This document shows, one piece after another, positions 190 through 51,758 of a stretch of DNA of 64,000 nucleotides. The notes under the pieces were generated by a model that saw only the letters and a program-made list of their open reading frames with translations, made no database searches and was not told the origin of the DNA. The position numbers were made by a program, and so were the translations under genes. The stretch comes from Corallium rubrum (lineage: Eukaryota > Cnidaria > Anthozoa > Scleralcyonacea > Coralliidae): positions 38,522,559-38,586,558 of the forward strand of contig OZ035998.1 in NCBI GenBank assembly GCA_964035015.1. The letters are read 5' to 3'. The first letter of the stretch is position 1, and each line of letters starts with the position of its first letter.

Positions 190-3100
190 CTAAAAACAAC
201 AAGTAGGGGAAATACATAGACTACGGACAGAGTTACATTTAATACAAATTGATTTCCAGGTGCGTGGGTCTTCAGAATGGTATATAGAGAGAATAGCAGA
301 GTGGTAGTATTCTTTTAGTTTGTTTTTGAAATATGAAAGATTGGTAGTCCGGGTTATTTCTTGAGGCAGCACGTTCCATATTCTTGGAGCTCTTATTAGG
401 TATGATTTACCGTACGTAGATGTTCTATATGATCGCTGTTTGAAAGCGCTGCCATCTGTTTTAATCTGAGATCTTGTAGGTATGTTGGTAGGTTTGAATT
501 TTTCAGGAATTGTAGTTTTGTCAAATGAAATATATTGATTGATTATTTTGAAAAAGAATACCATGTCCAGATATTCGTGCCAGTAGGTTAGAGGAAGTAG
601 GTTTGTTTCGATTAGTCTGTTCTCGTAAGTAATTTCACATTGGAAAGGTAGATTAAGAATATATTTTGTTGCGCGTCGTTGAACTCGTTCGACATTTTTT
701 ATCCGCTCAATTGTTTGTGGGCTCCAAACCTGAGACGCGTATCCAAGGTGGCAACGGACAATTGCCAGATAGATGGTACGTCTGGTGCTGATGGCGTTAA
801 TGTTTTTTGTGGTTCTTCTAGCGTACCCCAGGATCTTGTTGGCCTTAGCTGTTTGTGAATGAACCTGTTTCTTCCACAATAAGTCAGAGGAAATCCATAC
901 TCCAAGGTCTCGTTCATGTGAACAGTGTTTCAGTTCGATATTGTCCATGGAGTATGGAATCATGATGCGTTTCTTCTTTCTTGTTATGGTCTGAACTTTG
1001 CATTTTGTTTGGTTAAAAGCAAGGTTTGAAGATAGTGACCATTCATTGATGTTATTCAGGTCCTGTTGCAGAAGAGTGTTGTCTGCTTCAGTAGATATGC
1101 GCTTGAATAGTTTTGTATCATCGGCGAAGGTCGCTATTGTGGACGATAATACTGCGTCGGGAAGATCGTTGACGTAAAGAAGGAATAGCAATGGTCCAAG
1201 GATCGATCCTTGAGGCACACCAGAAGTTACGGGTAGAGGAGAAGAAGTTTCACCAAGTACTGTGACTTGCTGCCGACGGTCTGTGAGGTACGACTGAAAC
1301 CAAGAGAGCAGGCTGCCGCGGAATCCAAAGCGATAAAGTTTGTCAATGATTTTTTTATGACTTACTTTATCGAATGCTTTGGACATATCAAGGTAAATAA
1401 CATCGATCTGTTTTCCTTGGTCGAGATCACTTCCAATTGCATCTAGAATTTGGATGAGTTGAGTTGTACAGGATTTTCCTGGAACAAAGCCGTGCTGACA
1501 TTCATTGATGGTGTTTTTCAAGAAGTCCCTAATATGGTTGAGTACACAACGTTCCAACAATTTTGAAACAATGCAAAGGAGGGAAATAGGCCTATAGTTT
1601 TCTACTTGTTGTTTTGGTCCTCTTTTGTGTACTGGAACAACGTTGGCCAGTTTCCACTCGTCTGGAATCATACCAATACGGAGAGATTTGTTGAATAGGC
1701 AGCAGAGTGATGGGGCAATCTGGTAAGCTGTTGCAGTGAGAATTCGGCCAGGGATTTCATCCGGTCCTATTGCTTTATCTGGATCTAAGGATTTCAGCGC
1801 GATAAGAACATCAGTTTCCGACAAGGTCAATTCGTTGATGGTTTGTAACGGCGTGTTAGAGGTGCCTTGAGAGGTAGTATTAGTGTAGTCGTAGTTTGAT
1901 GGTGTTGGGTCCATGTCTGGATCCTGGTTAAACACTGATGCGAAATAATTGTTAAACATATGAGCGATATCATTTGGGTTGTTGGCCACTTGAGGATAAT
2001 TTTCCATGGAACGAGGAATACTAATTGTTTTTACTTTTAACTTAAACAAACTCCAAAAGCGTTTTGGACTGAAGTGTAGACTTTGACCAAGAGTATTAAG
2101 ATAGTTTTCGCGACCTTCTTTCATAAGACGTTTAACTGTAGTTCTAAGTTTCTTGAACTTTTCATGCAGATAATTTGTGGGAGATCGAGCAAGTTTGCGA
2201 CGGACAGTCTCTTTCTTGTTTAATAAATGCTGGATTTCGCTGTTAAACCAAGGGATGTTTTTCTTACCTTTCACTTTCTTCATTGGAATGTAGTCCTTAA
2301 CCGCTGTGAGAAATGCGTTTTTCCAAGACGACCAATCGTTATTGATGTTACCGTTAGCTGATATTACGTTAGATAAGTTTAATGATTCAAGACTAGAACG
2401 AAGTCCGTTGATATCTGCACGTTTGTAGTCGTAAACTACTCTATTCATTTTCACTGGTCGTTGAGGACAAGTTAGTATCTCAAACGTAATGGCGCTGTGA
2501 TCAGTCACTACTCCGGACATTTCTGGCGAGAGGATTTCACATATTTTAATTTGGTCGGGTATGCTTGTTATTAAAAGGTCTAGAATGTTATTTCCTCTTG
2601 TAGGAGAAGTGTTTATTTGAGAAAGGAAAAAATCTTTTAGAAGTTCAGAAAATGCTTTTCCGGTTGAAATTTCAATTGTCTCGTCGTCAGTATTCTGCCA
2701 ATTAGTGTTCGGAAAATTAAAATCACCCGCAATGATGATGTCATCATACTGGTCACGAATCATACCAAGAAAATCGTTAAGTTCGTTTAGCCAGTTTTCG
2801 TCTGAATTTGGAGGTCTATAGCACGAACACACCAAAAAATGTGAATTTGAATCCGTAGTTACATCAACTGCTACAATTTCAATATTGCAATTTGTTTGAA
2901 TTTCACGCACGCATTTAAACGACTCACTTTTAATTGCCAGAAGTACTCCACCACCTCTGTTATCTCTGTCTTTTCGAAAAATTTCATAATGTTGACCAAG
3001 AATCTCGCAGCTTAATACGTTGTTGTTTAACCACGTTTCGTTAACACATACAATGTCACTGTCCTCGGAATAAACCAAATCCTGAAAGTTGTGAATGTTA

Positions 3101-3609
3101 CTGGTAACTTTCATACCTTGCTTGTGTTGGCTTTTCAAACTTCGAGCGTTTAAAAGAAGACATTTTAACGGTGTTTTGCTGGAAATTTTCCCACGGGTTG
3201 GTACAGTTGACTTGAAGTTAGGTCCGGGATTAGTTTCTATGTCTCCAGACAATTTGATTAAAATAGTAGCAAACATTGCGTGCTTCAAAAGGCGAACTCC
3301 AAGAATTGCAACAGTCGAATAATTTAACGGTCTCGATTTGTCCGTTACATGGCTATTGTAAAAACGGCGTCGTAAATTGAATGTTGAGATTTCTCCTGAC
3401 AAATGGAGTAGTTCACTTGATTTATTGAAACTTTTATGATCTAGTATGTCTCCCAAAACCAGGTTTAAGTAAATAATTAGGCATAAGCTGCGGGAGCTCG
3501 AAAGAACCCAACCAGCTGCCATGATGGCGCACGCAAGGTGCAGGAAATGCAGCCCAGGCTCATTTGAAATAATTTGAAAGTTAATTTTGTTTTGTTTTTT
3601 TGTCTGCAT
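190..3609 (-). CDS. Endonuclease/reverse transcriptase polyprotein of a CR1-like retrotransposon with 2A motif
   Basis: A 1139-residue protein that nicks target DNA and copies the element RNA into the cut. Residues 1-118 have no recognised domain but contain two hydrophobic stretches (about 21-53 and 101-118). Residues 120-130 form a 2A-like motif ending NPGP. Residues about 150-378 are an exonuclease/endonuclease/phosphatase (APE-like) domain: NARSL at 154, NETWL with Glu191, GDFNFPNTNW at 295, and the SGVVTDHSAITF block with Asp370-His371. Residues about 640-900 are reverse transcriptase: NYRPISLL, YLDMSKAFDK near 739, GVPQGSILGPLLF near 797 and the catalytic FADD at 828-831. The remaining 240 residues are a basic C-terminal region. 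The first ATG lies in a tandem repeat that also supplies upstream out-of-frame ATGs; Met30 (MAAGW) is an alternative start. Confidence 0.93.
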   Translation of the reverse strand: MQTKKQNKINFQIISNEPGLHFLHLACAIMAAGWVLSSSRSLCLIIYLNLVLGDILDHKSFNKSSELLHLSGEISTFNLRRRFYNSHVTDKSRPLNYSTVAILGVRLLKHAMFATILIKLSGDIETNPGPNFKSTVPTRGKISSKTPLKCLLLNARSLKSQHKQGMKVTSNIHNFQDLVYSEDSDIVCVNETWLNNNVLSCEILGQHYEIFRKDRDNRGGGVLLAIKSESFKCVREIQTNCNIEIVAVDVTTDSNSHFLVCSCYRPPNSDENWLNELNDFLGMIRDQYDDIIIAGDFNFPNTNWQNTDDETIEISTGKAFSELLKDFFLSQINTSPTRGNNILDLLITSIPDQIKICEILSPEMSGVVTDHSAITFEILTCPQRPVKMNRVVYDYKRADINGLRSSLESLNLSNVISANGNINNDWSSWKNAFLTAVKDYIPMKKVKGKKNIPWFNSEIQHLLNKKETVRRKLARSPTNYLHEKFKKLRTTVKRLMKEGRENYLNTLGQSLHFSPKRFWSLFKLKVKTISIPRSMENYPQVANNPNDIAHMFNNYFASVFNQDPDMDPTPSNYDYTNTTSQGTSNTPLQTINELTLSETDVLIALKSLDPDKAIGPDEIPGRILTATAYQIAPSLCCLFNKSLRIGMIPDEWKLANVVPVHKRGPKQQVENYRPISLLCIVSKLLERCVLNHIRDFLKNTINECQHGFVPGKSCTTQLIQILDAIGSDLDQGKQIDVIYLDMSKAFDKVSHKKIIDKLYRFGFRGSLLSWFQSYLTDRRQQVTVLGETSSPLPVTSGVPQGSILGPLLFLLYVNDLPDAVLSSTIATFADDTKLFKRISTEADNTLLQQDLNNINEWSLSSNLAFNQTKCKVQTITRKKKRIMIPYSMDNIELKHCSHERDLGVWISSDLLWKKQVHSQTAKANKILGYARRTTKNINAISTRRTIYLAIVRCHLGYASQVWSPQTIERIKNVERVQRRATKYILNLPFQCEITYENRLIETNLLPLTYWHEYLDMVFFFKIINQYISFDKTTIPEKFKPTNIPTRSQIKTDGSAFKQRSYRTSTYGKSYLIRAPRIWNVLPQEITRTTNLSYFKNKLKEYYHSAILSIYHSEDPRTWKSICIKCNSVRSLCISPTCCF
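3220..3255 (-). other. 2A-like ribosome-skipping motif in the retrotransposon frame
   Basis: The frame reads LIKLSGDIETNPGP, matching the 2A consensus D-V/I-E-x-N-P-G-P. In known 2A sequences the ribosome fails to form the Gly-Pro bond, releasing the upstream peptide and continuing from the proline. Here that would separate an N-terminal piece of 129 residues from the endonuclease/reverse transcriptase. APE-type non-LTR elements with 2A motifs have been described in several invertebrates. Activity of this copy is inferred from the consensus only. Confidence 0.85.
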
Positions 3610-8600: not shown

Positions 8601-11600
8601 TGGCTACGCCACTGCTCATTGTTGCATTCAGTGATGGTATTATTGCGTGTTCTTGTTGTAGTAATCAAGCAGAAAAAAAAGACTCTCAAATGGCGGCTGT
8701 AAAAACAGCAGAAAAATTGTTAAAGGTAATTTTTTTGTAGTCGTCTTAATCATGTTGTTGTTTTATCCGTCGAGGAAGGGTGTAGTGTTAGCAAACTGGA
8801 AAGATCCCGGTTTCAAGAGAAGGCAATGTGGCAAAGAATGGCTTTGGCGCTCTTCTACAATCTCAGAATCTATCTAATTCTAACCGTTCGCGAGGATTGA
8901 TCTCTGTGTCAATTATATATGCATGGGTCAGCGGTTGAGTACATAACAACGTTTTTCTAATGCATATATCAGTATGGTTCAACCCATGTGTGTGGTCACG
9001 TGTTTACGGTTATTTAAAATGCGGTTTTGTTTTCAGGAGATCAAGCCGAAAGGAGCTTTAAAACATCGCATTTTAGAAAACTACGCGCTAATGGCAAACA
9101 AAAATAAATCAACTATTGAAAAATCCTTGTCAGATTTTATGGAGATTGCTACGGCTGAGGTAAGGAAAATGGTTTACCATATAAATAGTGTGGTATGAAG
9201 TGTCGTGAAAACAGCTCCCGTATGATTTTCGTGCTAAAGTGGGTTTCTAGATGTCACGCTATCAGAAAATGATAGGGTTCAAATTTTCGACCTTTCGACA
9301 GGGGGTCGAGAGGTCGGAAAATTTGAAGTGCATTTTTTGATAGTTTGACGCCTAGTCATCTAAAAAAAAAACTGAAAAAAGAAACAAAAATCAACTTTAG
9401 CATGCAAATCCTACGAAAGCTGTTTTGATAACACTTCATGCCACACTATTAGGGCTAGGATCAGGGTCAGGAAAGGTCTTCGAGTCACTCCTATTAGCCA
9501 TGTCTCCGACCCCTCGACCCCCCTCTATATATATATATATCGAAACATCGAAAATTTGAACTCCATCATTCTCCGATTTGACATCTAGTCAACTCAAAAA
9601 AGAAAAAAAATCAACTTTAGCGCGAAAATCCTACGAGATTACACTTTATAGCGCACTTTTATGATTGAACAGCAGTGTTTTATTAGATTTAAAGCACGAG
9701 GCGATAGTTGAGTGTTTATATCTCACAAAACAGATACTGCGAATGTTTGGAGTAGCTTTAAAAACGATCTACTTGGTAAGTTCATTGGCGTAGTAATTTT
9801 GAAAAACAACGTTGCCTAAGCCGAGAAAATCAAAGCTAAAGTTTCTGTAAGTCATGAGGATGTTTTATCAAACATATCATATAGAGTTTTTTTATAGACA
9901 CTCGTTAAACAAGGATTTTCTTTGTGTTTTCCTCGTAAATTATTAATGAGGATTTGAAGAATAAAAACTAATAAAGATACGGAATATAAACTTTTTGGGA
10001 GTATGGTGGCTATTAATTCAATGAGTTATTCAATTTAATGATTTTGAGAAGATTGGGAAAGGATGATTTGGTTTGACGTTATCGTTTTTATGTGCGCTTT
10101 GTTTTGCTGCATGTATCCATGATAAAGAATCTTATTAAATTCATTAAAAATTCATGAAGAAAATTCAAAAAGAAATGAATATTTAATCAATATCTGCAAT
10201 TCGCATACGGATTCGTCCTGCATGATTTACGTAAACTTTTTTCTCAATTTACTTAGCTAAAATCACTCCAACTTGAAAAATAGTTTGAAAACATGGCTAT
10301 TTAAATGCGTCCATTTGATAAGTAGGGTAAAGCATTCGCAGCCGATCTGTATCTGATTTACTACGGCTCGCTTGCAGCTCACCTTGTAATTAGTCAGATC
10401 ATAGTCCCTAGAATCATATGTCTGGAGATGCGGTGAATATCAAAGCGGTTGACAATGAGCTACAACTTAGGTTGAGGGTGGCAACTAAGGTGCACAATCT
10501 TTTGTTTTACGTTCATTAATATTTATAAAGCAACGCTGCTATTGGTTGATTGCTTCATTATACCAAAAATACAATGTGTTCAGCAAGCGTTAAGGTGATA
10601 TAAGGTGCACAAACGTGAACAAAAACCTAGAACAAAGACTTTGGCCGGGTTTCCAGACAATTTATTCCTAGGGACTATGGTCAGATACAGATCGCTGTTC
10701 ATGCTTTATCTATTAAGGTGGATTTCCATTCAGTGCATTTTATCGCGCGATCGACTTTTTGCGATCGCTTTCTTTTGAATTGTGAGTTGTCAAGCGGAAC
10801 GCATTTCATTAGCTTTGGTTGAATACACACATTTCAAAAGAAAGCGATCGAGAAAAGTCGATCGCGCGATAAAATGCACTGAATGGAAATCCAGCTTTAC
10901 ATACAGGCGCAATAGACCCTTTTAATAAGTGCGCGTCATTTTCCACACTTCATTTTCCACACTTGACGTCATTTTCAGCCTTTTGAATTATTTTGAAAAT
11001 ATGCAAAAGCTAAGACAATAACCGAAATTGAAAAGAATTCAAAAGAAAAACTGAAAAGGACTTGACTTCATAGGGTGGACATTACGTCTTCTATACTTAT
11101 TAAAAAGTCTATAGCCCGCACGTATGGTCGTAAGGAGGTTTGTCCCGTAGCTTTTTTAACCCTCCTTGGCTACGTGGCTGAAGTGCTTTTTCCCGTTACA
11201 ATTTGTTTGTTGTTAACTATTTTAATAATTAATCATTGAAGCCTATTTCCGTTTCTGATTGACCCAATCTCCTTTATTTATTTTGCACAATAAACTTAAG
11301 CTGTCCATATTTGGTAAAGTGAAAACAGAAAAATATTGAACCAATGACGTCACTCGTTCAATAATTAATACGTATTCGATGCTTGACGTCCCGAAAGCCC
11401 GAATTAATGGCTACTGGTAATTCTCAGTGCCTAAATGTGTTATGAACGCTGACCTTGGTTTAAATATAATCCTTGATTACAATTGGTTGCTGCTGTGGGG
11501 AGCCGCCGGCCAACCCCCGCGTAAGCGGGGAAAACGGCCGTAGAACGATTGTTGTTGTTTGTTTTGATTACAATTGGTCAGAAAGTTTCATGGAATTCTT

Positions 11601-14600
11601 GATATCTACATTTTCTGTCGTATTTGCCGCTGTGAGATTGTCAGATTTTTACCCCACAATGCTATTATCTGTTTTTGGAGGTGACGTGAACCTGTCCAAC
11701 TAGGCAAGCTGAAGAAAAACGCGGGAAAGAAGCTACTCTCTTTGAATTGCGTTCTTTAAACGTCTTTTTTATTCTGAGAGAGTGATTTTCTTTACATTTT
11801 ACTGTCGTGGTAATAGAAGCTAGAATATCGTTGCAACATATTCCTCAAGTTGACCAATTCATTTGATGAAAGTTATTGCTAACTTGAATTTGATTGGCTT
11901 CTGGTTTTTAAACAACCAATAAGAAACAGGATTATTTGCCAAACACCAATCAAATTTAAAACAGAATTCAAAACGGGAAGTTGACAACGAATCTTATAAA
12001 ATGGAATATATTGCAACAATATTTTACGGAACGCTTCTGTTGCCACGACGGTAATGTATTTTACATTTATAACGTGTAATGAAACAGTTATTTTCGATAT
12101 CAAGAATTGTCAAGATCTTAGACCGCTTGATTAGCCCTAACCTTCGGTTTCGGCAGATAACACAGACTTCGACTTTGATAATTCTCAAAAAAGTCTCATG
12201 CAATAATTGTTTTTTATTTACCTTATCGCAGTGCGCACATGTCTGCTGTGAACGGGATCTGTTTGTTTAAAGATATGAGCTCAAACCTCGTTTTTTTAAA
12301 GATTGTTTGCTCCAATTTGCGCAGCTATTTCTTTCTAACTATTATGATACCAGAGTTATCTAAATGTTGTATAAAAGTTGTCATTTTTACTTCAGCGTGA
12401 CCACATTCCTTCTCTTCTGGGTATGGCAACAGCTTATATGTACCTAAAACAAACACCACGAGCCCGCAATCAGCTCAAACGTATTGCCAAAATGAACTGG
12501 ACGATGGAGGTAAGCCACTGCAGTTATGATGACCTAAATTATTATTTAACTTAGTCAAAACATACACTGTATGCATTAATCGAAATATAGTAAGGTTTGA
12601 CAGATAACGTAGGAGACTACCGTATTTACTCGATTACACGCCGCGGCCTTTATTAAATTTTTAGCGTTTCCGATGCGGCGTTTATTCAAGGGCGGCGTTT
12701 ATTCGAGGGCGGCATTTATTTCAAAATCATATTTCTTAAATCACTGACAATATATTATGCAAAAGTATGGCCCCTTCGAACTTAGACACATTGTTATACA
12801 GGAAAATAAATTTCCAAGAATGGTGTAGATTACCGAATAAACGCCGCATTCTTCTGATTGGGTGCGGCGTTTATTCGAGGGCGGCGTTTATTGGTAATTT
12901 TGCTTCCATCTGCGGCGTTTAATCGAGGGCGCCGTTTATTCGAGCGCGGCGTTTAATCGAGTAAATAAGGTATAGGAGTCTAACGCTTCGAGCGAAGGTT
13001 CACGTTTCTCTCTGACGAAGGGCCTTCACTCGAAACGTTAGACTCCTATGTTCTCTGTTTCTGCAGTATGTCAAGCCTTACTATATTTCGATTGTTTCGA
13101 TTGTTGTTTCAACACTGCCTACGCCGCACACTATTTTGATTTAGTTCACTGCATTATGCATAAAGAATGGCCGATATAAGCATTTAAATTACCCTTCCCG
13201 CCTCGTTCTCGTGTTTAAGTCTGTTCAGTTATAACTCAAAAACGAGACTGGAAAGGCTAATTTAAATGTTTCTAAAAGAATATAAACTGGCGGCCATCTT
13301 CATAAATACGGTGTATACCATGTTTTGCCCATCGACGGTGGGAATAGCAAATGTCTTTCGCATCTCATTACTTTTTTATTGTTATTTTTCTCTGATTGGC
13401 TAAGTTTTTCGCATCTCATTAAGTTGTTATTGTTATTTTTATCTGATTGGCTAATTTTTGGTCACATGATTATCCTTCTTATATATAAGCTCGTTGTTTG
13501 TAGGCTTGTTACGTTTCTCTCTGATGAAGGGCCTTCGTTCGAAACGTTAGAAACTATATACGTTCAGAGTTCAATATAATCCTGAAAACTTGGTCTGACA
13601 TTATGTCAGACCAACCCACGTTTTGGTCGGACATGATCGGACACTAATTATTTCTAGAACTCAAAAGAGAAAAGTTGTACAATACATTGTATTGTAACAA
13701 CCACAACCGTATGCATAATGGTCAACACAATATCAACAGAACAACAACTCAGTCACAGTATAATATAACAACTGAAATAAAATTTCTTTTTGTTAAGCAG
13801 TTATTAATAGACGCGGCGATGTCACGCGTGTATTAACTTGATATATTATTATTCATGTCTAAGACCTAATTGTTGTAAACATTAAAAGATACTAAACAAA
13901 ATTAAAAACTCTGCGTTGTCGTGAAGCAGCGCATTAAGTCGAGCATTAGCTACATATTGATTTGCGAAAAAACATCTTTCTTTGTATGTGTAACAAATTA
14001 GTAAGAGATTGCGTTTTGGTTTTGCGAGAATGAGGGAGAAATTATTCAAATTAATGCGGCAAAATGGTCGGCCATAATGTCCGTGCAGAGCAATCAGTAG
14101 ACGGCCATATCAGCGTTTTGCTCGGAAAATGGCCGATGGCCGACTGTTATATTGCACACTGTATACGTTCAATATTTTCGGCAGTACTCAAACCTGGATA
14201 CTTGGTTCGGTATTTTGGTCTTTAAGGTTACAGGATACCCTAGGAAGTGACGGACACTATCGTATTATACAGTAAATAAGAAATAAAATGTTGTTGCAGA
14301 TATACCCATCAGTTTAAAATTACAGTACCTTCGCGCCGCGGTTTAAGGCGGCCTTTGGTTTTACCAAAAAGCTCTTGAGACAAATGGGGAAAAAATTGAG
14401 CGAGCGGTAACAAATTTCTTGAAATGGCTTCCTAGGGTATCCTGTAACCTTAAGATGAACTGCTGACACAGAACTCTACTTGTTTATGTATTTTTGTATA
14501 CAGCATAATGTTGTGTTTTTTATCTTATATTTTTTGTCAGGAGGCAGACGAGTTTGAAAGAAGCTGGTTACTGTTAGCAGACGTTTATATTCAGGTATAT

Positions 14601-17600
14601 GACATGTCTATTCGATGTGCATGGAAACATTGCAAGAAAAATATATTCTTGCGTGCCACCAAAGGTTTGCGACTATTGTGTGAAAACGTCCCGTTAATTT
14701 TGATTCACATTTGTGCAGACAATTACAAGCCCACAAAACTATAATTATATACATAGTCAGAGCAAAACGAACACCATGCAGCACAAAAACATCTTCCAAA
14801 CACATGCATTTAATAGTCGTGATTGTATGCCTGATCATTAATAAAAGCCAACCCCGCCCCCCAATTTACATGTCGGCTGTTTCTGTATTGGTTGTGTAAC
14901 GTTGGTTGTGTAACGTTGGTTGTGTAACGTTGGTTGTGTAACGTTGGTTGTGTAACGTTGGTTGTGTAACGTTGGTTGTGTAACGTTGGTTGTGTAACGT
15001 TGGTTGTGTAACGTTGGTTGTGTAACGTTGGTTGTGTAACGTGGTTTTAGAATTGTGTATATAATGGATATAAACAGGCTAAATACGCTCGGAATAACTT
15101 TCATCTTTTTTTACATTTTTCAGAGTGGAAAATATGACATGGCTGGAGACTTGTTAAAGAAATGTTTAGATCAGAATAAGGTAAAGAGGTGTTCTATAAT
15201 ATTTGTGATGTAATATTTGAACGAGAGTGTTCACAAGGAAACAATGGAGTGTTGCTGTCCATTGTTCTAGTTTCAATAGAGTTCAATAACCTTAATAGAC
15301 CTTTTCGCATGAAGTGCGTGGATAACGCAACGCATTGAGAGATTTTAGTTGCTCTCGCAAAACTTCGGACGTCCAAAACTTTGGGAAAATATTGGACATT
15401 AGCCAATCAGATTTGTCAAAAAAAGATCACGTGATCCATTCACTTCATGCGGAAAAGTCTATTGGATGTCTTTCTAAAATAAGACTACAGTAAGAGAATG
15501 TATAATAGATACTATACCTGCATACCTAACTATAGTTAGTGATCTTCAAATATGGTAATTAAATATATGCAGCAAGTAGAATCTACTGAGGCTTTGTTCC
15601 CCCCTGTTCACATGAGGCAAGCTATTTCATGTTAGTTTATTTCTATGTTTGAAAAGTAAACCGTTCACATGAGACCGAGATAACTCTGGTTCTGTCGTAT
15701 AAACGGCCCTAATTAGGCTAACGAATAAGATTTCTCTGAACAACTTTTTTCTGTGTTTAGTCTTGTTGCAAAGCATGGGAATATTTGGGATTTATTATGG
15801 AAAAAGAACAGGCTTATAAAGATGCTGCAAAAAACTACGAGAATGCTTGGAAATTTGGAAATCAAAATAATCCAGCGATTGGTGAGTAGTATTTTTTCAA
15901 CTTCATGTACTGTTTATGTCCTATTTATTGGAAGGGAAGTCTCAAAAGGATTGAGCGTCGTATACGGATATACTGTGGAGAGAAAAACAAACCGCGGTAA
16001 GAAATCATTTTTTATCTTTCCAACACAGTCTTTCGTTATTTCTCGTACATCTAGTTTGTTTGTTTCAGAAGCATTTGGGTAATTAGTTAAAGATGAAATG
16101 AAATAAAAATTAAGTTTGCTGAAAGTGATAAACAATGACTTTTACAGTTTTTCTATTTCTCACTTCGTTCTTAAATTATTTAGAATTGTTTGATATGTAA
16201 ATGATATAAACTATATGATGTAAATCATGTATATCTCAGACATTATTAATCGCCCAGAAAATACGATAAATCAGATAAACTATGACGTAGAGTTATATTG
16301 AGATTATTGGAAATTTATTTGAAAACGATGTATACTTTTAGGATTATTGAACCAAATTACTTAAAACTTTGCAAATACATGCATCTCATGCAACACACTA
16401 AATATCACAAGACCAAATTTCGTTCAATAATGTCTGAGATATACATGATTTTCCATATAACTTACAATGATCTACACATAACCTTACACATGATAGTTTA
16501 TCTCATATCAAATAAATCTAAATAATATTTTTTGTACATTATTAGTGTTGGTGTATGTTTTTGCTGTACAAGCTGTTGTATAAGTAAAACTCAGTAAAAC
16601 TCAGTCCTCGGTGTATACCATCTGAGTTTCAGTGGCTCAATAGTGAGAGCTGCGTCCGGCTGGCATCCAGCACGGATGGCGTGTGCTGTTAGGGCGCTGC
16701 CTCTCACCAATAGTTAAGCCCTGTTAGACGGGGTTAGTACTTGGATGGATGACCATCTGGGACAACCCTGTTCTCGAGCTTGGGATTCATGTGAGTAGAG
16801 TTTAGTTGGTCTCTCCTGTGCTCCGAGGATTTTTCGCCGGGTTCTCCGGTTTTCCTCCCTCCGTAAAATCGACACCTAGGGCTTAGTTGGGATCCGTATA
16901 GTGGAGAATAACCTTGTGAGGGACCTAGAGTCCTATTGTATACTTCTCCCGTTACCGCCAGGTACAAATGTTGATAAATAAATATTAAAAAAAATGGGTT
17001 TGAGCCCCGTCTGCAGCTCAGAGTTTTTCTCTGAGTTCAACTTGCGACGGCTTGTACAGCAAAAACATACGAAAAAACCTAAATAACTTGTGAACGAAGT
17101 GACATATAGAAAAACTGTAAAAGTCATTCTTTATCACTTTTAGCTGATCTTGAAGTTGAAACGTTTGGAGGGACAAATGTCAGATGTGGAAAAAAGAACA
17201 CGTTATGTCTCTCTAAATAATCTAAAGAATACTAGCCATCTTACCTCGTCACCAATCTTTAATTTGTTTTATTAGTGAAAAATTTGTAGAAATATTTTAA
17301 GAACTTCACGCGTATTTAAATATATTATTTTTTCTTTAATACAAAGGTTACAAGCTTGCGTTTAATTATCTGAAGGCAAAGCGGTTCGCTGATGCAATTG
17401 ATGTCTGTCACCAGGTAGGAGATAAAACGGCTTGCTGAATAGCGGGTGTATAGTCTGTGCAGACTGTATTTTTTGCCCACACATACCTTGAGGGGGACAA
17501 GAATCGATATATACAACTTTCTCCTATTTTGCTTAAAATTTCATTGTTTGAAGACTTTTACTACAGTGGATTTGTGCATGGCGAATCTCTTTTCTTATAT

Positions 17601-17736
17601 TCCATAACGCTATTAGGAAATTATTAACATTAAGTTTTTTGGTTTATTTTTGTGTTAGGTGTTGAGCCAACATCCTAGATACCCACGAATAAAAAGAGAG
17701 ATTCTCGAGAAGGCTCGCTCTTCTATTCGCACTTAA
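5654..17736 (+). CDS. TTC21B: IFT139 / TTC21B, C-terminal 11 exons (5' part outside window)
   Basis: IFT139 is a TPR-rich subunit of IFT-A, the complex that works with dynein-2 in retrograde transport along cilia. Exons: 5654-5716, 6489-6550, 7169-7205, 8662-8725, 9037-9159, 12396-12509, 14541-14594, 15124-15180, 15761-15881, 17347-17414 and 17659-17736 (TAA stop). Together they give 279 residues with all phases closing. Family blocks are plain: [96 protein letters not shown] and the C-terminal EKARSSIRT, all helical TPR-type sequence. The first donor (5717) is GTTGGT, weaker than the others, but the alternative GT at 5721 gives an immediate stop. No upstream exon was found between 1 and 5653. 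Vertebrates have the paralogue TTC21A; invertebrates usually have one TTC21. Introns carry many repeats. Confidence 0.93.
5735..5945. repeat. Dispersed repeat, copy 1
   Basis: The stretch from AATATCTGTAAATCGCATAC through CGCAGCCGATCTGTATG and GGCTCGCTTGCA is repeated nearly base for base at 10180-10385, also inside TTC21B. Both copies are non-coding; class unknown. Confidence 0.65.
7360..7662. mobile_element. Dispersed 300-bp repeat, copy A
   Basis: Begins AGTATAAATACACAGGTGAT and ends CCTTCGGCGAATAATTGTTA. A copy in the same orientation, over 90% identical by eye, lies at 61041-61341 in an intron of DYNC2I1. The right part is a hairpin around CTCGACTTCGTCTCGG. No coding capacity. Confidence 0.8.
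7970..8614. mobile_element. hAT-type non-autonomous transposon (645 bp) with 8-bp target duplication
   Basis: Ends are inverted CAGTGGCGTAGCCA / TGGCTACGCCACTG. The element is flanked on both sides by the identical 8-mer CTCATTGT (7962-7969 and 8615-8622), the target duplication length of hAT transposons. It contains poly-G/poly-C runs near both ends and no transposase. It ends 47 bases before the TTC21B exon at 8662. A relative lies at 34309-34793. Confidence 0.9.
9187..9452. mobile_element. Inverted-repeat element after a TTC21B exon
   Basis: The arms AGTGTGGTATGAAGTGT...GCTAAAG and CTTTAG...ACACTTCATGCCACACT pair over about 55 bases, with an inner hairpin around AATTTTCGACCTTTCGAC. A degenerate partial copy follows at about 9535-9660. 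The left end is about 28 bases after the exon ending at 9159. Confidence 0.7.
10180..10385. repeat. Dispersed repeat, copy 2
   Basis: Close copy of 5735-5945, same orientation; it shares the CGCAGCCGATCTGTAT and ACTACGGCTCGCTTGCA words. It runs directly into the inverted-repeat element starting at 10400. Confidence 0.65.
10400..10679. mobile_element. Inverted-repeat element, relative of 5119-5591
   Basis: Ends CATAGTCCCTAG / CTAGGGACTATG. The interior shares ATTATACCAAAA(A)TACAATGTG and CAAAGACTTT words with the 5119-5591 element, but lacks the nested hairpin, so it shows the state without that insertion. Confidence 0.7.
10713..10899. mobile_element. Hairpin element of the TTAAGG(C/T)GGATTTCC type
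   Basis: Arms GGTGGATTTCCATTCAGTGC and the inverted GCACTGAATGGAAATCCAGC pair closely; GCGATCGCTTTCTTTTGA is matched by the inverted word inside. Related to the nested hairpin at 5202-5376 and more distantly to the TTTTCCACTAGGCGA hairpins further right. Confidence 0.72.
10907..11115. mobile_element. Inverted-repeat element (AATAGACCCTTTTAATAAGT ends)
   Basis: The left end AATAGACCCTTTTAATAAGT is matched by the inverted ACTTATTAAAAAGTCTAT on the right. Non-coding. The gene-free stretch to 12395 that follows is TTC21B intron with no further exon seen. Confidence 0.65.
12580..13096. mobile_element. Composite palindromic element with a nested hairpin
   Basis: The outer arms AATCGAAATATAGTAAGG / CCTTACTATATTTCGATT are inverted. 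Inside is a second unit (about 12619-12972) with inverted ends ACCGTATTTACTCGATTA / TAATCGAGTAAATA and repeated words GCGGCGTTTATTCGAGG. To its right, 12978-13048 carries an inverted pair of the AACG(C/T)TTCGAGCGAAGG motif, which also occurs at 13521-13550 and 23712-23745. Confidence 0.7.
13500..13570 (+). repeat. Copy of the GAAGGGCCTTCG...CGAAACGTTAG dispersed motif
   Basis: Reads CTGATGAAGGGCCTTCG then TTCGAAACGTTAGAAAC, followed by CGTTCAGAGTTCAATAT. The same block occurs at 12978-13048, 23712-23745 (inverted) and, degenerate, at 32905-32965. It looks like a conserved piece of a repeat family. Confidence 0.6.
14222..14454. mobile_element. TTAA-ended hairpin element
   Basis: The ends TTAAGGTTACAGGATACCC and the inverted GGGTATCCTGTAACCTTAA are an exact pair; both include TTAA, the target of piggyBac-type transposons. 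No coding capacity. Confidence 0.75.
14888..15042 (+). repeat. 14-bp tandem repeat, about 11 copies
   Basis: Unit GTTGGTTGTGTAAC repeated head to tail almost without change, in the TTC21B intron between the exons at 14541-14594 and 15124-15180. It ends about 80 bases before the next exon. Confidence 0.95.
15290..15466. mobile_element. Inverted-repeat element (AATAGACCTTTTCGCATG ends)
   Basis: AATAGACCTTTTCGCATGAA at the left is paired by TTCATGCGGAAAAGTCTATT at the right. It lies just after the TTC21B exon ending at 15180. Confidence 0.7.
16119..17147. mobile_element. 1-kb inverted-repeat element carrying nested SINE-like DNA
   Basis: The left arm (about 16119-16185, AAAGTGATAAACAATGACTT...) pairs with the right arm (about 17083-17147, ...AAGTCATTCTTTATCACTTT). 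A second pair, TGTATGTTTTTGCTGTACAAG near 16551 and its inverse near 17055, lies inside. Between them sit a tRNA-like segment and a 5S-like SINE (16690-16990). The whole lies in the TTC21B intron before the exon at 17347. Confidence 0.65.
16690..16990 (+). mobile_element. 5S rRNA-derived SINE (SINE3-like)
   Basis: Positions 16712-16770 read AGTTAAGCCCTGTTAGAC, GGGGTTAGTACTTGGATGG and ATGACCATCTGGGA. This matches the internal control region of 5S rRNA (box A, intermediate element, box C), where TTAGTACTTGGATGGGAGACC is nearly universal. The 3' body is unrelated and ends in an AT-rich tail (GATAAATAAATATTAAAAAA), as in retroposons. The intact 5S 5' end is missing, so this is a SINE, not a working 5S gene. 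Just upstream (16625-16680), GTGGCTCAATAGTGAGAGC resembles a tRNA box A, and GGGTTTGAGCCCC resembles a box B just after the tail. Confidence 0.72.
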
Positions 17737-17859
17737 ATAAGATTAATAAGACTTCACTTAACACTGTTTATATATTTATATTTAAGCTGAATATGTTCTT
17801 AATTCTTTTCATATATACTGTAATATATACATGTGATTACATCAATATTGTCACTGAAT

Positions 17860-18170
17860 CACAGAATAATAATACAACCGGAAGTCCAACTCGAGTGAAA
17901 ACTTGTCCGCATTTCTTCAATGCGCATGCACGATATTTTACGCCATCCTACGCGATCCTACGCAATGTCCTACGCCATGTCCTACGCCATCCTACGCAAT
18001 CTGGCAAGTCCCCCCGGCAGTTTTAACCTTCTTTTGAAGGTCCAAACTGCCGGGGGAACTTGCCAGGATTGCGTAGGATGGCGAGGAATCAAGATGCCGC
18101 GAGACGACATGGACAAGGACATAAACTTCAAAGGTTCCGACGCGAGTTGGACTTCTGGTTGTATTCTGTG
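17860..18170. mobile_element. Inverted-repeat element, copy 1 (ACAACCGGAAGTCC ends)
   Basis: CACAGAATAATAATACAACC and the inverted GGTTGTATTCTGTG bound it, with a long hairpin centre around GGCAAGTCCCCCCGGCAGTT and AACTGCCGGGGGAACTTGCC. A close relative, inverted overall, is at 20333-20645. It starts about 120 bases after the TTC21B stop and may lie in or near its 3' untranslated region. Confidence 0.75.
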
Positions 18171-19164: not shown

Positions 19165-19170
19165 TTTATT
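19165..19170 (-). terminator. Candidate poly(A) signal for the lysozyme gene
   Basis: AATAAA on the minus strand, about 225 bases after the lysozyme stop codon. It is the only canonical signal noticed in that stretch. Confidence 0.45.
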
Positions 19171-19395
19171 ACGATTACAGCACTATTTGAGATGAGAAAC
19201 CTATTGCTTTGCTTCATTTTAGTTAGTCTTAATTTTCACTGATAACCTTTAACTTTGTCTCTGTTTATCCATCTGATACACAATCATTAAAGTTTCTTAT
19301 CAAAGTCTATCAGATTAAACGTATTCTAAACGCAAATTCTGTAAATTGCTTTTTGTGCTATGATGCACATGTCAAGATATTACTTCTTCACCTGT

Positions 19396-19899
19396 TTACT
19401 TCTTCACCTGTTGAGCGTACTGACGAAATATATTAGCATTATAATCCATGCGAGTTTTAATTCCTCGACATTTACTTCCTTGTTTGGATGCTTCACGATA
19501 ATCACTGCGATCAAGGTACTCGTCAGCCACCTTGCTCCATTCGTCATTGTTAATTAGCCTCACTGTCTTGTGAGTTGCCTTCAGCTCTCCTCTAAACACA
19601 GCATTGACAAGAGCAGTCTGGACATTTCCAGGAAAATTATCATAATTGGCGAAGAGGCCTTTTGTTGTCTGGACCTTATCTTCCAACGTTTTACTAAAAA
19701 GCTTCATCACTTGTTTCTCTGTCAAGCTTGTCTTTCCTGAAAGAACATCGTCATAAGAGACATCAGGCAGAAAACTTTTGAAAATTTGTTTCCCGTTTGA
19801 TTGTTCCAAGTTAAAACCAACGCCAACAGTCTTCAGACCATTAGTGTCAGTGTAAACTTTCTTTTCCATTCCTTCGAATCCTGCAATAATCTTGTCCAT
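19396..19899 (-). CDS. Phage-type (GH24, T4-like) lysozyme
   Basis: A 167-residue enzyme that would cleave the N-acetylmuramic acid to N-acetylglucosamine bond of bacterial cell walls. It covers the full single-domain length of T4-type lysozymes. The active-site block is intact: GFEG with Glu9, then YTDTNGLKTVGVGF with Asp18 and Thr24. The spacings Glu+9=Asp and Asp+6=Thr are those of the T4 enzyme triad. A later block, NFPGNVQTALVNAVFRGEL, matches the helical core. The start is taken at the ATG at 19899, because the frame further upstream has no ATG. A good 3' splice site (TTTAATTTCATAG) ends 2 bases before that ATG, so an upstream exon, perhaps with a secretion signal, is possible; no signal peptide is present otherwise. 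The stop codon lies on a perfect 16-bp tandem duplication. Bacterial or phage origin by transfer is inferred. The AATAAA downstream and splice site argue against contamination. Confidence 0.88.
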   Translation of the reverse strand: MDKIIAGFEGMEKKVYTDTNGLKTVGVGFNLEQSNGKQIFKSFLPDVSYDDVLSGKTSLTEKQVMKLFSKTLEDKVQTTKGLFANYDNFPGNVQTALVNAVFRGELKATHKTVRLINNDEWSKVADEYLDRSDYREASKQGSKCRGIKTRMDYNANIFRQYAQQVKK

Positions 19900-19901
19900 T
19901 T

Positions 19902-19915
19902 CTATGAAATTAAAC
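19902..19915 (-). promoter_or_regulatory. Possible 3' splice site just before the lysozyme ATG
   Basis: The minus strand reads TTGTTTAATTTCATAG followed by AAATGG. The pyrimidine-rich run ending in AG is a plausible intron (or spliced-leader) acceptor. No matching upstream exon was identified. Confidence 0.4.
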
Positions 19916-20332
19916 AAGATGCGTTAACGTTTTTGAAAATATGTGTAAAGTTTTGTTGTAACATATGCAGTGCCCACATTAGGGCGGTAGGACCAGAGTT
20001 CCAGTCCTAGCACGAAGCAACTTGCAGCTCGCTGCGAGTATTTTAGCGCTCGTGGCAGGTAGTTGAAAATTTTGAATTTTTTTTTACCCGCTGCAAGTGC
20101 TCACAGTAAATTAAACAATCAAAACAAATTATGTCAACATTTCAAACTCGTTAGTAATTCATGAGGAAAACTGCACAAAGGAAATCATTACCGTGTCGAT
20201 GGTTAATTTGTATGGATATTGAAGGAAGAAATTACATAAATGAATCGAACTTTCACGTCGATTTTCTCTTAAAATACCGATTTGTTTGAGATGCGCATGC
20301 TATATCAAACACTCAGAAGAATGCTTCATCAG

Positions 20333-20645
20333 GACACAAAATAGTAAGACAACCAGAAGTCCGACTCACGTCGGAACCTTTGAAGTTTATGTCCTCGTGC
20401 ATGTCGCCTCGCGCATCTTGATTCATCGCCATCCCACGCAATCCTGGCAAGTTCCCCCGGCAGTTTGGACCTTCAAAAGAAGGTTAACACTGCCGGGGGA
20501 ACTTGCCAGGATTGCGTAAGATGGCGTGGGACATTGCGTAGAATCGCGTCAGATGGCGTAAAGTATCGCGCATGCGCATTGAAGAAATGCGGACAAGTTT
20601 TCACTCGAGTCGGACTTCTGGTTGTCTTACTATTCTGTGATCAGG
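20333..20645. mobile_element. Inverted-repeat element, copy 2 of 17860-18170
   Basis: Ends AATAGTAAGACAACCAGAAG and the inverted CTTCTGGTTGTCTTACTATT. The centre again is GGCAAGTTCCCCCGGCAGTT with its inverse. Orientation is reversed relative to the copy at 17860. Confidence 0.75.
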
Positions 20646-22650
20646 ATATCCAAACACCTCGAAGTTTGTTCGAAAAACTTGGCTATCGCTTCATCAGCCG
20701 TGAGTTATGCACGAGTCAATTCCAGACATGACCCCCCCCCCCCCCGAGACTCCGAGACATTTGCCTTGCACTGTGTTCCCAGGGGACGGGAATTTTCCTA
20801 CTAAGCTGGGCACAGGGGCCGGACATACTAGCGCTCTAAAACCCCCGGGGATTTGATCCAAGCATAAGCATGTGGGTGCGAATGTGTCCTCGTGGTTTGC
20901 AACTTTGCGTTCAATATACACTGAATTATGGATGAGTTTAAAGGGGGAAACGATGAATTTGTAAAAGATTGATTGGTAGAGAATAACCTGACAAAGCTTG
21001 TGGACGTTTTTGAAGCGAGTGATATATTGATATATTTTAATAGAGATTGATTTTAATGAACTCGATCCATGACGTGCTCCCGGGAGTGGGGAATTTGTCA
21101 CCTTTTCACAGCCCAAGGGTGGGGAATTTGCCCATCAGTTTTTGCCCTGTGGCGGGGAATTAGCACTATAATTTTAAAAAAATCAAATGCCCAGGTCGTT
21201 TCCGGGGTGGGTGGGCATGTTTGGAATTTACTCGTGCATTATCGCAACGAACTGCGTTTGGTGGAAATATAACCGTGCGAGTACTCGCAGCGAGCTGCTT
21301 AGTGCGAGGACTAGAAATCTGCCTTAGTTTATAAGAACCTGACCTGTCAGAGACTACGGCCATGCTCCTATAATCAGTGGCTTTTCCGCCTAGTCCTCCT
21401 ACTTCCAAACACGCGTACGTTCCACCGCCACTGCGCAGTGCACTTAAAACTTTCAATTCGAATCAGTTAACTGTACATTTGTACGAATAATTTTGTTTTC
21501 GTTTTAACGTTATCTATTAAAATCATACATTTCAGTTTCGTAAACGTTCAGTTTAGGACGGAGGATTGTATAGCACTTTCATTTTCATAATTTGCCGCCT
21601 CGTATAAAAAATACTATGTATACTAGATGGTTTTCGGTGGAATTTCAGTTCGTTAAACAGAAAGCAATATATAGACATGACGTCAATATCATTCCAAAGG
21701 CAAAAAAGAACAGTTCTGTCTTCAAGTGTATTATGCCATCCAAACGCATCACACGTGTCTTCATTCTCAAATAATTACTCGGGTTACTGTGGTAGGCCCG
21801 AATCTAGGTTTCGGCTCGGGGTTTTTTTTCGCTTTTTTTTTGGTGTCACGATTTTGCATTTTTGCACATTTTACTTCCGCTACTATTCATACTTCCGGTG
21901 AGTTGTTTGCCTTGTGACGGATTGAGTCCGTCAGGGCATGTAAGTTCTGGTAAGTTCTTTGCTCCTTTCGCTTTTGATCAAGGTGTTCTTGCTTGTTGCT
22001 AGTAGATTTCGAAACTGACTAACTGACTTTGTAGTTTATGTAACAGCGATGTGGCTGACAGTTTCTTGATCGTATAAAATATGTTCACCTCTGTGAGGCT
22101 AGTGTGCACCACATTCAATCCTTCGATCTGATCTTCCTCGGCCCATTCCCACCTTTGCTCGATCGCGCGGTATATGAGCCCCTGCGGAAGAGATCTCTAC
22201 TTTGCCAGTAGCCCAAGTGAACACCTGACCCAGGTGTCTTGTTATCTATTAGGTTCTTCTTGAGCACGACTGTTGTGCGTGGGCATACAATTATTTAAAA
22301 CTAGAATTGAGGTTTCGATCTTGGAACGACGATTCTCAGAAAAAACTCTGCTTTCAGGAAGGAAGTGCGATTGTGTTCTGAGTTAATACAACTTGATTAA
22401 TTTCATAATCACAAGTATAATCTGCAATTTCCTTGAAACTTTGTTAAAGTATATATAGTTCTTCATTATCACCACACGTCATGTAAAACCATCCTCGGTT
22501 TAATTGCTTTCTGTACATCACAATTGTTGCGAAATTGAAAGTGCCGGCGAAATTAGTGAAGTGTAAAATGGTATATATAGCAGTTTATTCACCTCTGGGA
22601 AAGCCCTCGGACAGGAATGAGTTAATCCGATCGCGGTTCTTGGTTCTTTT
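20646..22650. other. Intergenic, no gene recognised
   Basis: About 2 kb with several short open frames, none with a recognisable domain or splice support. A low-complexity C/G-rich stretch (20729-20850) and GTGGGGAATTTG repeats (21089-21170) are present. Nothing else could be supported. Confidence 0.5.

Positions 22651-30800: not shown

Positions 30801-51758
<20,958 letters not shown>

Follow-up and report, generated by a model that had tools for sequence, protein, structure and literature searches.

A T4-type lysozyme gene of likely phage origin in a chromosome of the octocoral Corallium rubrum

The stretch of Corallium rubrum DNA analyzed here (64,000 nucleotides, called the window throughout) lies at C8:38522559-38586558, in an assembly that totals 474 Mb over 312 contigs, and carries a GH24 lysozyme gene that is integrated in an animal chromosome. 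Its predicted product is structurally complete, with the fold of phage T4 lysozyme and an intact catalytic triad, and the gene is likely of phage origin. We consider it probable that the frame is an octocoral host gene derived from the lysozyme of a marine tailed phage, acquired directly or via a bacterium and long nuclear, and that it encodes a basic 19-kDa enzyme of the T4 fold whose site of action is most likely intracellular.

A complete T4-type lysozyme in an animal chromosome

An earlier sequence-only reading of the window had pointed to an intact frame here without naming a strand. The frame is indeed intact and lies on the minus strand, which has no stops before the TAA at 19398-19396, versus three on the plus strand. 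The longest minus-strand frame, a mechanical open reading frame call, opens at a TTG (19917) and encodes 173 amino acids, and the first ATG (19899, context GAAATGG) gives 167. In 60 Markov-1 sequences of 64 kb each, the longest ATG frame averaged 125 amino acids and reached a maximum of 179; since chance frames in 64 kb reach a similar size, length is weak evidence and homology decides. The features of the gene are as follows.

19396..19899, minus: GH24 (T4-type) lysozyme coding sequence, 167 amino acids, single exon from first ATG to TAA (Pfam, PHROGs and PDB matches; AlphaFold2 model with T4 lysozyme structural match; single copy)
19873..19875, minus: codon of Glu9, predicted general acid (translation and T4-type lysozyme alignments)
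19846..19848, minus: codon of Asp18, predicted catalytic residue (T4-type lysozyme alignments)
19828..19830, minus: codon of Thr24, predicted catalytic residue (T4-type lysozyme alignments)
19902..19917, minus: TTGTTTAATTTCATAG, possibly a 3' splice site, its end 2 nt short of the ATG; it would permit a 5' exon, unproven (sequence reading and script)
19165..19170, minus: AATAAA, possible polyadenylation signal about 226 nt past the stop, where a chance match is possible (script)

The Pfam family PF00959 (Phage_lysozyme) matched residues 13-156 of the 173-residue TTG frame at 31.7 bits (cut-off, 22.3; E = 2.1e-7), a PHROG endolysin matched at E = 1.5e-9, and phmmer aligned the window protein to a T4 lysozyme (E = 4.9e-6); NCBIfam gave just one match, far below threshold. 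The triad that the sequence-only reading had described is borne out by alignments with T4-type lysozymes as E9, D18, and T24, with the Glu-to-Asp (+9) and Asp-to-Thr (+6) spacing of T4. Residue roles were assigned from the T4 triad, E11/D20/T26. An AlphaFold2 model of high confidence has the T4 lysozyme fold and matches the T4 structure. The window protein resembles the T4 endolysin (gene e) in fold, triad, and triad spacing, but differs from it in sequence (ca. 18 to 26% identity), and trees place it on another branch of GH24. At the 3' end, a perfect 16-bp tandem duplication (window 19380-19411) spans the stop, so that the last codons and the stop are repeated directly after it.

The contig bearing the lysozyme measures at least 38.5 Mb at the assembly level, and the frame sits on it together with a spliced animal gene. 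The two nearest repeats are miniature inverted-repeat transposable elements (MITEs).

9037-9159, 12396-12509, 14541-14594, 15124-15180, 15761-15881, 17347-17414, 17659-17736, plus: last seven predicted exons of TTC21B/IFT139, in phase and with AG/GT borders
17858..18165, plus: MITE copy 1, with inverted repeats, 1.2 kb past the lysozyme 3' end; flanks ACTGAAT/ACTGATT (6/7)
20335..20641, minus: MITE copy 2, with inverted repeats, 436 bp 5' of the ATG and facing the other way from copy 1; flanked by a perfect 7-bp duplication of its target, ATCAGGA

TTC21B is an ordinary gene of cilia. The seven exons matched TTC21B of PDB entry 8fgw at 343 bits across its last 199 residues and end in a stop at 17736, tail to tail with the lysozyme and with 1.66 kb between the two ends. 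The sequence-only reading had set the lysozyme in an "animal gene cluster" with clear animal genes as flanks, naming this gene and a transporter. The genome is an animal one and TTC21B holds as a neighbor, the only verified nearby gene, which makes "cluster" a loose term; the transporter, a ZIP-like exon at 44243 scoring 25 bits (under the cut-off of 35.1), is not an immediate neighbor, because it lies ca. 24 kb away.

MITE copy 1 is a high-copy host repeat. A first look gave 1,274 candidates for its family, and the 40 that were scored comprise the copy itself and 39 others at 90 to 93% and near full length, scattered over many contigs. The two MITEs in the window are inverted copies of one another, and a single element made of both was considered and rejected, as termini and a flanking duplication are present separately for each of them. 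That the gene is framed by two inverted MITEs might suggest the cargo of a mobile element or of an endogenous virus. We judge this very improbable: terminal repeats and a duplication belong to each MITE individually, the lysozyme DNA is single copy in a search of its own assembly whereas MITE candidates are many, and, judged by length alone, the stretch from 15 to 24 kb has just two other listed frames of at least 100 amino acids, one at 15753-16082 that overlies a TTC21B exon and one at 20694-21116.

Corals host many microbes and phages, so a contaminant or an assembly chimera from a phage, bacterium, or symbiont has to be weighed. This is very unlikely, because TTC21B and host MITEs flank the gene on both sides at 0.4 to 1.7 kb, the contig is at least 38.5 Mb long, and GC content at third codon positions is host-like (0.389 in the lysozyme and 0.387 in the TTC21B exons, whereas two related phage genes have 0.245 and 0.350). 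Nor did we find a near-identical microbial source; the best matches were 40% over part of the protein and 36% over nearly all of it, with bacterial genomes covered by one narrow scan.

Phage relatives and the number of captures

Among 50,697 phage records, the best matches were lysozyme domains of Vibrio phage virion proteins (28% identity over 92%), some annotated as virion RNA polymerase. IMG/VR gave closer sequences, and among the best 80 of 92 matches identity reached 36% over residues 4-165 (L048), 35% over 1-167 (L052), and 40% over 59-164 (L054). Marine phage lysozymes from this source (L048, L054, L055, and L134-L153) are like the coral protein in the C-terminal half, up to 40%, and the first three share with it a long C-terminal pattern, RGELK..HKTV...W.KVADEYLD...RM.YNA..FR.Y. 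The related phage frames that were inspected run to ca. 260 to 336 amino acids stop to stop and carry additional sequence at the C-terminal end, which in one of the three frames tested includes LysM, whereas the coral protein is a bare domain. Its N-lobe is full, while that of L048, L054, and L055 is shorter and altered; L058 has the long N-lobe segment of the window protein, at 30% over 161 columns. In one of the phage contigs (L137), several different frames, the lysozyme included, open with MKI(I/L)IT-like N-termini, a feature noted also for the L134 and L135 lysozymes and perhaps a shared packaging or targeting tag.

Plasmid matches were weak (12 records, at most 27.2% identity). A scan of viral contigs with a single protein gave no relative in 10 pattern matches. 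In 84,980 prokaryote genomes, narrow patterns from the window gene aligned with three phage proteins gave no relative in 37 pattern matches, and very narrow, poorly chosen patterns from the C25 protein alone (see below) gave none in 45.

The same genome has two further GH24-derived genes, both secreted-looking.

G000:C25:10845973-10848358 (L007 3973-4388, 6075-6358 and beyond): GH24 gene of at least two exons, with an intact triad and a cysteine-rich, granulin-like tail
G000:C1:44853451-44853744 and flanks (L036 1441-2217), minus: secreted-looking relative with a granulin-like tail

The predicted C25 gene begins with a signal-peptide-like start and continues through a GH24 domain with E/D/T intact into the beginning of a cysteine-rich tail, in two exons, the first of which scores below the Pfam threshold (14.5 bits). 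In the C1 protein, alignment finds all three triad residues replaced or missing, so it is perhaps a binding protein lacking activity. Cysteine-rich, granulin-like exons follow both genes; against the Pfam granulin model the C1 tail remained below threshold (17.8 bits versus 20.9) and the C25 tail had no match. Exon joins and signal peptides of both genes were read from the sequence by eye rather than by a predictor.

To place the three coral genes we used a tree of 46 rows, of which 43 were from phages or viral contigs. The rows came from 137 hidden Markov model matches, filtered by score and length and thinned of near duplicates; the C1 row was put in by hand. The window gene grouped with L048, L054, L055, L057, and L134-L153 (support 92/80), and the C25 and C1 genes with T4-type phages (98/96). 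Approximately unbiased (AU) tests on these rows rejected neither the window gene with L048, L054, and L055 (p 0.343) nor with L058 (p 0.131). With three T4-side contigs added (49 rows), the branch splitting the window gene from C25 and C1 was supported at 100/99. The window gene was nested among phage rows in the 46-row tree, the 49-row tree, and two of three alternative runs. The sequence-only reading had proposed acquisition by transfer, and this agrees with a GH24 gene in an animal genome whose nearest relatives found are marine phage sequences.

The trees bear on how many times this happened. One old acquisition, or an ancestral eukaryotic GH24 gene, would make the window gene a diverged paralogue of the secreted genes; the window and C25 proteins share 32% over 91 residues and similar N-lobes, and the 46-row AU tests rejected neither a single coral clade (p 0.149) nor a group in which four T4-side phages join the three coral genes (p 0.166). 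We find this doubtful, as the coral clade was rejected in all four runs with 49 rows (p 0.0011, and 0.0121, 0.0023, and 0.0013 when the alignment was changed in two ways or the column filter in one), the window gene and C25/C1 fall on opposite sides of the 100/99 branch, and the C-terminal half of the window protein resembles the group of L048, L054, and L055. The rejection appeared only once the three T4-side contigs had joined; the C25 and C1 rows are of odd composition, sampling is uneven, and the phage group was named after the likeness had been noticed. From these sequences, two captures appear more likely than one. The fuller proposal, on which we are evenly divided, is that the octocoral lineage captured GH24 lysozymes on two or more occasions, drawing on different branches of the family, one of a bare intracellular type (the window gene) and one secreted with a granulin-like tail (C25), the latter duplicated later to give the triad-less C1.

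Proposed action of the lysozyme

In the reading that we favor, the lysozyme of a marine tailed phage, passed directly or through a bacterium, would have been the ancestor of a gene that has presumably long resided in the nuclear genome. The predicted product is basic, has a mass of 19 kDa, and would fold like T4 lysozyme; in it, Glu9 would serve as general acid and Asp18 and Thr24 would aid hydrolysis of the bond between N-acetylmuramic acid and N-acetylglucosamine in peptidoglycan. It is probably used against bacteria, and the antibacterial effector role given to it in the sequence-only reading is a candidate one. We propose action inside cells because no signal peptide is visible, most likely on bacteria in phagosomes or in digestive cells; it could be secreted instead if an undetected 5' exon were joined at the acceptor-like TTTAATTTCATAG just before the ATG. 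A crude scan of 6 kb upstream (hydrophobic start plus strict GTRAG donor) gave no fitting signal-peptide exon. We infer expression, activity, and benefit to the host.

Several points weigh against this reading. The gene is known here from genome sequence alone, as one copy, and its coding sequence occupies one exon with no proven intron, an acceptor-like site lying just 5' of the ATG. No signal peptide precedes the ATG, which puts its reach to bacteria in doubt. As for descent, the 46 rows accommodated the coral genes together with T4-side phages, as given above, and with the globalpair alignment the window gene fell in no starred set. Tree rows came mostly from searches baited with the window protein, are phage-heavy, and lack GH24 sequences from bivalves, fungi, protists, and bacteria; the prokaryote scan used two short patterns and proves little, so that bacterial relatives are barely covered.

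Some of this would fit a transferred gene that merely survives, integrated and not, or no longer, expressed or useful: it is present as one copy, has neither a signal peptide nor a proven intron or promoter, and its open frame is no longer than chance can produce in 64 kb. We regard mere survival as unlikely. The frame and full triad are intact although only ca. 36% identical to the nearest phage proteins, third-position GC equals that of the neighboring host gene, and the fold is predicted with high confidence; it fits less well because long free drift should have brought stops.

Genome context and known animal lysozymes

Other observations in the window and assembly concern different elements. 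A long non-LTR retrotransposon frame with endonuclease and reverse transcriptase (window 190-3609, minus) contains a GDIETNPGP stretch resembling a 2A peptide. A long simple repeat (39238-41142) gives rise on either strand to open frames several hundred codons long. The 97-kb contig G000:C129 (L041-L047) carries mitochondrial genes, including several COX1 pieces, some with stops; cox2-, atp6-, and cox3-like frames were seen by eye past cob, and it is perhaps a concatemer or a rearranged mitochondrial genome. The mitochondrial contig further has frames read by eye as mtMutS, a gene not known outside octocorals, with which PMC3166940 also links it. Among PDB sequences, a GFP-like exon of the assembly comes closest to fluorescent proteins of the coral type; both observations fit an octocoral.

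Co-option of a phage lysozyme by an animal is a known kind of event, and the phylum is new as far as the searched literature reaches. Ren et al. (2017; PMC5303276) showed phage-type lysozyme genes with introns and fusions in bivalves of two subclasses, together with antibacterial activity; bacteriolytic activity was demonstrated for HcLyso1. The octocoral gene is like these in lying in an animal genome with animal flanks and in having marine phages as nearest relatives, but the bivalve genes described there are interrupted by one or more introns, have undergone duplication, and are fused in three cases, whereas the octocoral gene belongs to another phylum and has no proven coding intron. Animal g-type and i-type lysozymes would do the job proposed for the window gene and belong to other families; PF01464 and PF05497, searched for g- and i-type lysozymes, gave nothing in this genome, which shows the absence of neither (PF05497 was run with no working control).

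PMC12855814 describes Cnidaria as apparently lacking bona fide lysozymes, yet later counts g-type genes there, and PMC11576321 reports g-type genes in two soft corals and in none of the other cnidarians searched. Because the latter also mentions unpublished "non-conventional" cnidarian lysozymes, these GH24 genes may be known to others. Among the literature matches listed, we saw no report of cnidarian GH24 lysozymes (subscription papers, preprints, and database annotations being outside the scope). In PMC7379824, of 124 proteins in which a conserved domain accompanies cysteine-rich repeats, 26 are reported to have phage-lysozyme domains.

PMC5880021 reports lysozyme-like enzyme activity for octocorals, and the octocoral GH24 gene set is a concrete candidate for it. 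Transfer of lysozymes from phages to animals would thereby widen beyond bivalves and, if the proposal of at least two captures is true, cnidarians, a phylum said to be largely without conventional animal lysozymes, would have drawn repeatedly on phage lysozymes for antibacterial or digestive enzymes.
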